Of a stretch of 64,000 nucleotides of DNA, positions 16,378 through 19,359 are shown piece by piece. The DNA is taken from NCBI RefSeq assembly GCF_017939745.1, contig NZ_JAGKQQ010000001.1, forward strand, positions 6,649,299 through 6,713,298. The letters run 5' to 3'. The DNA comes from Gemmata palustris (GTDB lineage: Bacteria > Planctomycetota > Planctomycetia > Gemmatales > Gemmataceae). The notes beneath the pieces are model-generated. The model searched no databases, was not told the origin of the DNA, and worked only from the letters and a program-made list of their open reading frames with translations. The translations under genes were made by a program, and so were the position numbers. Every line of letters begins with the position of its first letter. Within the stretch, counting starts at the first letter, position 1.

Positions 16378-19359
16378 ATGCCAGTTTGTGCGAACTGTAA
16401 CGGGCCGATCACCGGAAGCGGGTACGCGGGGCGCCCGCAACCCGACGGCGGCGCGCGGGCGTACTGTTGTTTCGGCTGTTTGAGCCTCGGCGAACGGGCG
16501 TGTACGGACGCCGGGTGCTACGCGACTTCTGCCACGAGCGGTAGGTTCGACGGGCTGCGGCTCGGAATCGGTTTGCTCGTCGTCGGGCAGTCGATGATTT
16601 TCGGCCTCGCGCTGAACGTACACGACGACGTTCCGCCGGTGATTCGCGACTTCACGCAGTGGTTCATCTTCACAATCACCATGCTGGTCGTGGCCCTCCT
16701 CGGCGGCCCGCTCATCACCACAGCGGCGCGGGAATTGCGCCGCGGGCGCCTCACGATCGAGGCACTGTTCCTGCTCACGATGTTCGGCGCACTCGGTGCA
16801 TCGCTCCAGGCGCAAATCACCGGGCGCGGGAAGATCTATTTCGAGGTCGTGTCGGTCCTGCTCGTCGTGTACACGCTCGGCAAGATGATCGGCGCGCGGT
16901 CACGGGTCGCAGCGCTCGCGAGTTCGCGCGCGTGGGGCGAGCAACTCGCGACGTGCCGTTTGGTCGATGACGCCGGCGACACGCGCACCGCGCCCGTTGT
17001 GGACGTGTGCCCCGGGGACGTGGTGGAAGTCCACCCGGGCGAGCTGATCGCGGTGGACGGGATCGTTCACGAGGGCGCGGGCTTCGTGTCAGAAACCGTC
17101 GTGAGCGGCGAGCCGTTCGCGGTGGTTCGGCGCCCCGGGGACCGCGTGGTGGCCGGGTCCGCGTCCTTCGATGCGACCTTTCGCGTCACCGCGACCGCGA
17201 GCGGCACCGAGCGCGAAATCGACCGACTGCTTGCGGCTGTAGAGTCCGCACGCGACAAGCCGCTGTCGTTGCAGGGGCACGCGGACCGGCTCGGGCAGTG
17301 GTTTTTGCCATTGGTGGCACTCACGGCGCTCGGCACGTTCGTGTACTGGACGTTTTTCACGTCGGCCGGGTGGGAAGCGGGCCTGTTCAACGCGATGTCC
17401 GTGCTGCTGGTCGCGTGCCCGTGCGTGATTGGTTTGGCGACTCCGGTGGTGATCTGGTCCGCACTCAATCGGCTCGCGGAGCGCGGGGTGATCGTTCGCG
17501 GGGGCGACGCCATCGAGCGCCTCGCGACCGTGGACCGCGTGATGTTCGATAAGACCGGCACTCTAACGGAAGACCGCTTCGCACTCGTTGACATCGAAAC
17601 GACTGCGACTGGCCCCGCGCGCACGAAGCTCCTCGGTTGGCTGTCGCTCGCACAGGCGCAGAGTAATCACCCCGTCGCGAAACCGTTCGCCGATTTACCA
17701 CGGAATTTCGCACCGGGTGCGGAACCGCGTGTAGCGTCACTCGTGGCGGTTCCGGGGTGTGGGGTGATCGCGGAACTCGTCGAAGCGAACGGCGCGCGCC
17801 ACGAAATCAAGATCGGGACGGAGGAGTGGGTGCCAAAAGGAATTGCTAAATCCCCTCTCCCCTTGGGGGAGGGGTTGGGGAGGGGTTTAAGGCAGAACCT
17901 AACCCCCCAACCCCCTTCCCTAAAAAGGAAGGGGGAGCAGAGCCATCCACCGCATTTAACCTCTTCCAAGGAAGTGGGTAACAAAACCGTTTTCGTCGCA
18001 GTTGATGGCGAACTTGCTGCGACCGCGGTCGTCGCCGAGCGGTTGCGCGATTCCACGCCTCAAGCGCTCGAACAGTTCCAACAACTCGGCCTGCCGGTCG
18101 AAGTCCTGACGGGCGACGCAACCGGCCGCGCGGAGGCACTCGGGCTCCCTTCCGCGCGCGGCGGATTGCTCCCGGATGACAAACGCGCAGCCGTCGAAGC
18201 CGCGAAGAACGAAGGCGGGAAGCCGCTGTTTGTTGGTGACGGAATCAACGATGCTTCAGCGCTCGCCGTGGCGCACGTCGGCGTAGCCCTTTCGAGCGGA
18301 ACCGATCTCGCCGTTAGCGCGGCCCCAATCACGCTTTACCACGCGGACCTTCGTGTGCTCCCGTGGGCCGTCGAGGTCAGCCGCGACGCGGTCCGCGCCG
18401 TGCGCCTGAACCTGACCCGCGCGCTGGTCTACAACCTCGTCGGCATGACGCTCGCCGCGTGCGGTGTGCTTCACCCCGTCGTCGCGGCCGTGCTAATGGT
18501 GGTGTCGAGTCTCACGCTGATCTTCTCGTCCACGCGCGTGGGGTGCGGGCACTTGGCGCGACTTACCCCCCCTGAAGGGAAGGGGGAGGAGAGGCAACCT
18601 AACCCCCTAACCCCCTTCCCTAAGAAGGAAGGGGGAACAGAACCAAATGCGGCAGACACAAAGCAATCATCGGTCGTTTTAAGCCCCTCTCCGCTTAGGG
18701 GAGGGGTTGGGGAGGGGTTCTTTCTCCCGTTCGCCCACGCCGTCGCGTTCGCGTTGCAGGGGGGCGTCTTCTTGCTGCTCCTGTCGTCGTTGCGCGAGCG
18801 CGACGCGGCCGTGTTCACGCTCATCGCGTTCGCGCTAGCGGGAGGCTGGCTCGCGATCGCGTGGCGTCGGTTCAATGTTCCGCACTGGGTCGATATGTGC
18901 TTCGGAATGCTCACGTTCGGCAACCTGGGAATGCTGCTCGGCTGGTGGGCCGATAATGACTTCGCCGCACTCCACGACCACGGGTGCTGTGCGTGCGTGG
19001 AGGCGATGCGCGAGGGCGTGATGAAGCCGTGGATGTGGGTCGGGATGCTGGTGTTCGCGAACGTCGCGATGCGCTGGTTGGGGCGCGGACCTGTACCGAA
19101 CGCGGATCACGCGATCGCGATGTACACGGGCGGGAACATCGGCATGGTGGTCGGCATGGTCGCGGGCGGCTGGTGCGCGACGCAGTTTCAGACGGAGAAC
19201 ATGGTCACCGCGGTCGCGACTAGTTTCGTGGGAATGACGCTCGGAATGCTCGCGGGGATGCTAGCGGGCACGTGGGTGACGGAGAGCCTTTTAACGGGAG
19301 TTCGCGCGGTCGGGTTCTGGCCCAAATGGGCGAAACTCAAAGCTACGCGAACTTCTTGA
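16378..19359 (+). CDS. Heavy-metal P1B-type ATPase (CcoI/FixI-like) with in-frame repeats and C-terminal membrane extension
   Basis: A 993-residue cation-pumping ATPase of the inner membrane. The N-terminus carries CANCNGPI and YCCFGC, like the Cys-rich start of CcoI/FixI copper pumps for cytochrome oxidase assembly, but I see no HMA ferredoxin-like domain. Core motifs are intact: CPC at 347-349, the phosphorylated Asp391 in DKTGT, and GDGINDA from 620. Residues about 488-535, in the nucleotide-binding part, and about 729-782, after the last core helix, are translated palindromic repeats (17842-17985 and 18562-18722) and look inserted. Residues about 783-993 add several transmembrane helices with FGNLGMLLG and GGNIGMVVG repeats and a HDHGCCAC cluster. 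I use the ATG at 16378, which gives the Cys-rich N-terminus. The 3' end overlaps the convergent TSUP gene by 17 bp. Copper is the likely substrate from CPC and the N-terminus. Confidence 0.9.
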   Translation: MPVCANCNGPITGSGYAGRPQPDGGARAYCCFGCLSLGERACTDAGCYATSATSGRFDGLRLGIGLLVVGQSMIFGLALNVHDDVPPVIRDFTQWFIFTITMLVVALLGGPLITTAARELRRGRLTIEALFLLTMFGALGASLQAQITGRGKIYFEVVSVLLVVYTLGKMIGARSRVAALASSRAWGEQLATCRLVDDAGDTRTAPVVDVCPGDVVEVHPGELIAVDGIVHEGAGFVSETVVSGEPFAVVRRPGDRVVAGSASFDATFRVTATASGTEREIDRLLAAVESARDKPLSLQGHADRLGQWFLPLVALTALGTFVYWTFFTSAGWEAGLFNAMSVLLVACPCVIGLATPVVIWSALNRLAERGVIVRGGDAIERLATVDRVMFDKTGTLTEDRFALVDIETTATGPARTKLLGWLSLAQAQSNHPVAKPFADLPRNFAPGAEPRVASLVAVPGCGVIAELVEANGARHEIKIGTEEWVPKGIAKSPLPLGEGLGRGLRQNLTPQPPSLKRKGEQSHPPHLTSSKEVGNKTVFVAVDGELAATAVVAERLRDSTPQALEQFQQLGLPVEVLTGDATGRAEALGLPSARGGLLPDDKRAAVEAAKNEGGKPLFVGDGINDASALAVAHVGVALSSGTDLAVSAAPITLYHADLRVLPWAVEVSRDAVRAVRLNLTRALVYNLVGMTLAACGVLHPVVAAVLMVVSSLTLIFSSTRVGCGHLARLTPPEGKGEERQPNPLTPFPKKEGGTEPNAADTKQSSVVLSPSPLRGGVGEGFFLPFAHAVAFALQGGVFLLLLSSLRERDAAVFTLIAFALAGGWLAIAWRRFNVPHWVDMCFGMLTFGNLGMLLGWWADNDFAALHDHGCCACVEAMREGVMKPWMWVGMLVFANVAMRWLGRGPVPNADHAIAMYTGGNIGMVVGMVAGGWCATQFQTENMVTAVATSFVGMTLGMLAGMLAGTWVTESLLTGVRAVGFWPKWAKLKATRTS
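17852..17940 (+). repeat. Palindromic element inside the P-type ATPase gene (copy 1)
   Basis: Two units lie in tandem. Unit A (17852-17887) pairs a CCCCTCTCCCC arm with GGGGGAGGGG and ends in a second TTGGGGAGGGG. Unit B (17897-17940) pairs CCCCCTTCC with GGAAGGGGG over a 7-bp loop. The ATPase frame continues through both, giving Pro/Gly-rich text such as SPLPLGEGLGRG. Both units recur at 18598-18719 with about three mismatches each. Confidence 0.9.
18565..18719 (+). repeat. Palindromic element inside the P-type ATPase gene (copy 2, rearranged)
   Basis: A partial B-like unit (18565-18590) is followed by unit B (18598-18641), a unique 41-bp spacer and unit A (18683-18719). The order is therefore reversed relative to copy 1, while each unit keeps its orientation. 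Unit B matches copy 1 at 41 of 44 positions, but it is read in another frame (NPLTPFPKKEGG instead of LTPQPPSLKRKG). Neither frame contains a stop codon. Confidence 0.9.

Follow-up and report, generated by a model that had tools for sequence, protein, structure and literature searches.

Why should one P-type ATPase gene of Gemmata palustris carry the same palindromic DNA twice, both times in frame and each time read differently? The gene lies within the window, the stretch of 64,000 nucleotides analysed here, at positions 16378–19359 on the + strand. Its open reading frame, Pfam matches, homologues and their alignment define it as a heavy-metal P-type ATPase of 993 amino acids with a C-terminal membrane extension, carrying the Pfam domains E1-E2_ATPase and Hydrolase. 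The open frame runs for 1045 codons without a stop; comparison with homologues favours the ATG at 16378 over 16222 as the probable start.

Two in-frame inserts in a P-type ATPase gene

Insert 1 (17842–17985, + strand) is in the nucleotide-binding domain, and insert 2 (18562–18720, + strand) separates the last helix of the core from the C-terminal helices. Both locations had been proposed from the DNA letters alone (hereafter the sequence-only reading), and both are borne out by Pfam and by a structure model of the ATPase (13 sequences; mean pLDDT 71.5). In this model, pLDDT falls below 50 at residues 487–533 and 721–780, matching inserts 1 and 2, which are both predicted to be disordered loops.

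Each insert contains the two units described earlier, in the order A–B and then B–A. In insert 1, a unit search places the hairpin arm A at 17849–17887 (− strand, head at the right side) and the hairpin arm B at 17897–17941 (+ strand); the latter folds as a hairpin and is read in frame +0 (LTPQPPSLKRKG). Insert 2 begins with a decayed, C-like palindromic unit at about 18565–18591 (+ strand), seen in the alignment and as a weak match (6667873–6667897); it is decayed in the sister genomes G008 and G010 too. The C-like family also occurs away from A and B, but with 3 clusters in 0.68 Mb it is too sparse there for analysis. There follow the second unit B (18597–18641, + strand), now read in frame +2 (NPLTPFPKKEGG), a variable linker joining the arms (18642–18680, + strand, delimited by linker comparison) and the second unit A (18681–18719, − strand). 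The two A units differ at 2 positions (17852–17885 against 18684–18717), and the B hairpins are at 17911–17935 and 18611–18635, with the heads CTAACCCCC at 17899 and 18599. Unit B is thus read in two frames, neither of which contains a stop, as had been claimed. Dinucleotide shuffles of the window yielded neither unit A nor unit B. The G-rich strand of both A units reads GGGGAGGGGTTGGGGAGGGG, a four-tract G-quadruplex motif.

Alignment of homologues shows that the two segments are not conserved parts of the enzyme: at both insert sites, congeners carry other palindromic inserts or none, several of them lacking any. This was the comparison on which the idea of insertion had been staked, and it came out in favour of insertion.

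A dispersed composite element with one open frame per strand

The units are not confined to the ATPase gene. The B pattern matches 75 times in the whole genome (9,228,281 bases), against 1 match for the reversed-pattern control, and the A pattern matches 54 times; the reversed-A control is uninformative because the A pattern is nearly symmetric. The family thus amounts to about 70 clusters in a 9.2 Mb genome, a dispersal whose absence would have refuted the sequence-only reading. Every match was extracted together with some 4 kb of flanking DNA at either end and compared side by side, which led us to revise one part of that reading. A and B had been taken for separate units; across the genome they are the two inverted hairpin arms of a single composite element, B(+)...A(−), about 100–130 nt long. 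Its layout is a AACCTAACCCCC-hairpin B, a variable linker and a hairpin A with the head AACCCCTCCCC on the far strand. The heads (CCTA[AC]CCCCC) lie 5′ of the hairpin and have no GTAG or CGTC tag. In fold predictions the arms pair as terminal inverted repeats, and a single strand can fold back along the entire element. The anatomy therefore combines the terminal inverted repeats of a MITE with the linker-joined inverted doublet of a REPIN.

The distance from CTAA to the end of A is mainly 121 or 97 nt, with minor classes of 109, 115, 118 and 124 nt, so that nearly all element lengths are 1 modulo 3 (69 of 81 across three genomes and a few others). The B–A copy in insert 2 (18597–18719) is a canonical 121-nt element (18599–18719), completed by its unit A and supported by the fold. 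The A–B copy in insert 1 (17849–17941) has the fixed 33-nt A-to-B offset that is found at junctions of tandem copies (L058 and L032). Other palindromes share these arrays. Hairpins of a second family (about GCTCCGGCCCGCGAGAAGCTCCGCTGACAGGGCCGGAGAGC) sit inside the loops of A or B and add 39 or 45 nt, also in frame (L047, L070, L012 and L049; in G008 and G010, L148, L153, L159 and L183). At L016 and L051 the arrays include yet another composite palindrome (GGAGGGGGTTGCAGGGGGAACCCG...GGGTTCCCCCTCACAAG).

The reading frames flanking each of 71 clusters were called with a codon model trained on the window. By this measure, 44 clusters lie in frame within one gene. Among strict clusters, 38 of 53 (72%) are genic, compared with 0.50 and 0.47 of random positions put through the same scoring (P = 0.001); the family is therefore not mostly extragenic, as REPs are. 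Several of the non-genic clusters start 0–7 nt from the stop codon of the upstream gene (L010, L039, L063, L066 and L070), and three others scored outside genes are probably genic as well (L007, L020 and L062). A Pfam scan covered 40 host frames; in 28 of them the insert was flanked by homology at either end or interrupted a domain, so these gene calls are not spurious open reading frames. The hosts are functionally unrelated and include essential genes. Among them are PheT (with the insert inside the catalytic-core domain), UvrA, Mfd, RarA/MgsA, RecD2, SelB, TilS and QueG, as well as an AIR-synthase-like kinase, a cysteine-desulfurase-like aminotransferase, an E2 acyltransferase, PSD1-type cytochrome proteins and the ATPase of the window.

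Relative to the C of CTAA, the 44 genic clusters are read in frame +2 (sense, 24 clusters), −1 (antisense, 18) or +0 (2). The +0 reading is confined to the C variant of the head, and only C-variant copies are open in that frame. Readings +1, −0 and −2 are never used among these clusters, and nearly every copy has stops there. Each genic copy needs only one open frame, yet in 36 of 40 full-length copies, whether genic or not, neither +2 nor −1 contains a stop; open frames number 2.08 per element, against 1.28 in shuffles. The linkers are diverse (mean identity 0.62), and 65 of them contain no stop in −1 and 4 in +2. In column shuffles, the depletion of +2 stops is significant (P = 0.003 and 0.016), whereas that of −1 stops is not significant alone (P = 0.09 and 0.16); these statistics pool copies from G. 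palustris, G008 and G010, which are related. Outside genes, descent from a few common source copies may account for part of the frame bias.

Two earlier proposals can accordingly be narrowed. Freedom from stops had been suggested for several frames; it holds for two, one on each strand, and not for all, +0 being open only with C-variant heads. Tabulation of coding against intergenic copies, frame and length modulo 3, which had been suggested as a check, agrees with the original idea of stop-free reading in this narrower form. Selection or design had been invoked as the cause. Design is unnecessary: if frame-breaking copies are purged while the family keeps moving in both orientations, the open frames are accounted for.

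Site turnover between species and range across phyla

We located the orthologous places of the genic sites in G008 and G010 and extracted them. Site length differs from that in G008 in 36 of 39 cases, by −204 to +249 nt, and 32 of these 36 differences are multiples of three (binomial P = 7 × 10⁻¹²). Of the four exceptions, two (L059 and L067) are probably anchor effects, because other anchors yielded a multiple of three. Among non-genic controls, 9 of 16 differences are multiples of three, which probably reflects genic copies among them. Frame breaks in G010 were set aside because this draft contains runs of N and likely errors in G/C runs. The sites differ in the element present, in tandem number, in nested 39- or 45-nt hairpins and in the presence of other palindrome families, so that between species of about 88% identity the content of a site can be swapped for unrelated palindromes. 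G008 has no element at L009, L022, L010 and L060. These empty sites are too diverged to fix the ends of the insertion or to delimit a target-site duplication.

The B pattern was found in 15 of 59 relatives, chiefly within the genus. A wider scan, with one genome per species, placed near-exact B units, among the matches listed, in Gemmataceae, other Planctomycetota, many filamentous Cyanobacteria and three Chloroflexota. Three cyanobacterial plasmid records also matched; there was no match to the B unit in phages. Outside Planctomycetota, 15 of 47 B units among the matches listed are embedded in open frames that extend for 80 codons or more to each side, and the genic readings among them are likewise +2, −1 or, for the C variant only, +0. 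Such open frames are unlikely to arise by chance at about 40% G+C. The hosts there include a U32 peptidase, an NRPS and a nitrite/sulfite reductase. In the U32 peptidase, two Nostoc species and Symplocastrum share the position of the B unit (L255, L271 and L322), which suggests a long-kept insertion. The sequence-only reading had described the phenomenon as one of Rickettsia type in a planctomycete; the presence in a planctomycete stands, and the limit to planctomycetes is too narrow, since genes of cyanobacteria and of one Chloroflexi genome also contain the B unit.

Origin of the inserts and relation to known repeat families

Very probably, the family consists of non-autonomous palindromic mobile elements of about 100–130 nt, whose in-frame members are the survivors left after frame-breaking copies were purged. 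An element of MITE- or REPIN-like anatomy would be duplicated into new sites by some enzyme, in one orientation or the other. Its sequence is free of stops in one frame per strand, and its length variants step by multiples of three; a gene that receives it could therefore gain 32–43 codons for a disordered polypeptide rich in Pro, Gly and Arg. Insertions causing a frameshift or introducing a stop would be purged, so that survivors would be found in frame in genes or just past stop codons. Occupied sites are then remodelled in multiples of three through tandem copies, nested hairpins and swaps with other palindrome families. The term 'mobile' is used here on the basis of dispersal and of presence or absence between genomes; we infer that copying was transposition-like, that the inserts are translated and that frame constraint retains them. 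The element may have been able to spread inside working genes without breaking them because it offers one protein-readable frame per DNA strand.

A stronger version of this proposal, held with somewhat less than even confidence, takes the interior of coding genes as the main niche of the family. Having evolved one open frame per strand and length steps of 3 nt, the element could enter genes either way round, and its sites would be long-lived, in-frame hotspots of palindrome exchange in at least three phyla. Retention in genes would follow because only in-frame loss is tolerated there.

One candidate for the enzyme is a resident RAYT (TnpA-REP) that recognises and moves the hairpins of a classical REP/REPIN system. 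REPs are tied to RAYTs in the literature (PMC3116915, PMC3733652), the inverted hairpin doublet with outward heads is REPIN-like, and G. palustris does have a true RAYT (L382, C1:5014332–5014781), found with the NCBIfam model at 185 bits and missed by PF01797. This RAYT, however, is flanked by inverted GTAG-tagged repeats (GTAGGGTGGGTCGAGCC...) of a separate, classical REP system; no A or B unit lies within about 6 kb of it (13 kb examined), and the A/B heads lack a 5′ GTAG or CGTC tag. In addition, G008, a single contig with 58 B copies, has no match to PF01797 (Y1) and scores only E = 0.10 with the RAYT model. We therefore reject the resident RAYT as the mobiliser and regard a classical REP/REPIN system as quite unlikely; in G. 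palustris and G008, no RAYT flanked by A/B units was found. Three Y1-transposase matches occur in the G. palustris genome, and no A or B unit adjoins any of them. At one locus (L003, C1:4313822–4314058), several copies of a different palindrome (CTCCCGCTCCCTTGCGGTCGCGGCTCG) follow a Y1 transposase.

The remaining alternatives concern what the inserts are for, or whether they are inserts at all. Domestication, with Pro/Gly-rich linkers or mRNA hairpins useful to their hosts under positive selection, would be in line with the genic share above that of random positions, with the continued occupation of the same sites in sister species and with the U32 peptidase site common to Nostoc and Symplocastrum. 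It is nonetheless unlikely, given that unrelated palindromes replace site content between species of about 88% identity, that the hosts are functionally unrelated and that several congeners do without any insert in the ATPase. Removal or skipping of the inserts during expression, by RNA excision or by ribosomal bypassing over hairpins, would leave the proteins unmodified; the hairpins at insert ends speak for it, as does the presence of inserts within the catalytic domains of PheT, TilS and other housekeeping enzymes. Skipped segments, however, have no need of lengths in multiples of three or freedom from stops, both of which are strictly kept, and we consider this mechanism highly improbable. 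Finally, G/C-run sequence in a genome of 65% G+C could suggest low-complexity linkers that arose locally, without any mobile family. Arms that are nearly identical recur at about 70 places and in other phyla, shuffles contain none, and there are sites without the element; these data refute the idea, which we give next to no weight.

Mobile palindromes kept in frame remain the preferred reading, and their closest counterparts are the Rickettsia palindromic elements (RPEs), nearly half of whose first 44 copies were in frame in genes (PMC10969869). Like RPEs, the A/B elements are dispersed palindromes of about 100–150 bp, in frame in many unrelated genes and without a known dedicated transposase; the analogy drawn at the outset holds in this respect, relatives carrying other inserts or none. 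In contrast to RPEs, which were compared by description and are unrelated in sequence as far as known, about 72% of strict copies here lie in genes, both strands offer a frame that is in use and stays open, several palindrome families turn over at the sites, and the unit spans phyla. Intragenic REPs share the short hairpins, the frequent inverted dimers, some in-frame cases (uvrA, DNA repair) and the sites just after stop codons. GTAG and CGTC REPs lie mainly between genes, the strongest in-gene cases being those of Opitutus terrae and R. conorii (PMC3733652, the text of which does not mention Gemmata or the A/B family), whereas A/B elements are mostly genic and untagged. The REPIN/RAYT system shares the inverted hairpin doublet, variable linker, tandem clusters and non-autonomy, but no RAYT is tied to A/B, the resident one having GTAG repeats of its own. 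Bacterial MITEs with open reading frames (ERIC, QMITE and Anabaena MITEs) are also small, non-autonomous, inverted-repeat elements capable of in-frame fusion; here no parental transposon was found, the empty sites are too diverged to show whether a target was duplicated, and positions fused in frame to genes are the principal ones, not the exception. On these descriptions we file the A/B family as a variant of in-frame palindromic elements and not as a REP; its distinguishing traits are the unusual bias to coding DNA and the phylum range.

A 2024 review considered an RPE-like process in other prokaryotes conceivable but unexplored (PMC10969869), and RPEs have so far been viewed as an oddity of reduced parasites. 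Here the phenomenon appears on a larger scale, in a 9 Mb genome of free-living type, and the sister species provide a natural time series of insertion sites. Pro/Gly texts of this kind should be annotated as mobile DNA and not as conserved domains. As judged from the gene sequences, core enzymes such as PheT, TilS, UvrA, Mfd and SelB can probably carry 30–80 foreign residues. How selection shapes a mobile element for reading on either strand, and whether new protein linkers arise from inserts of this kind, can now be tested.
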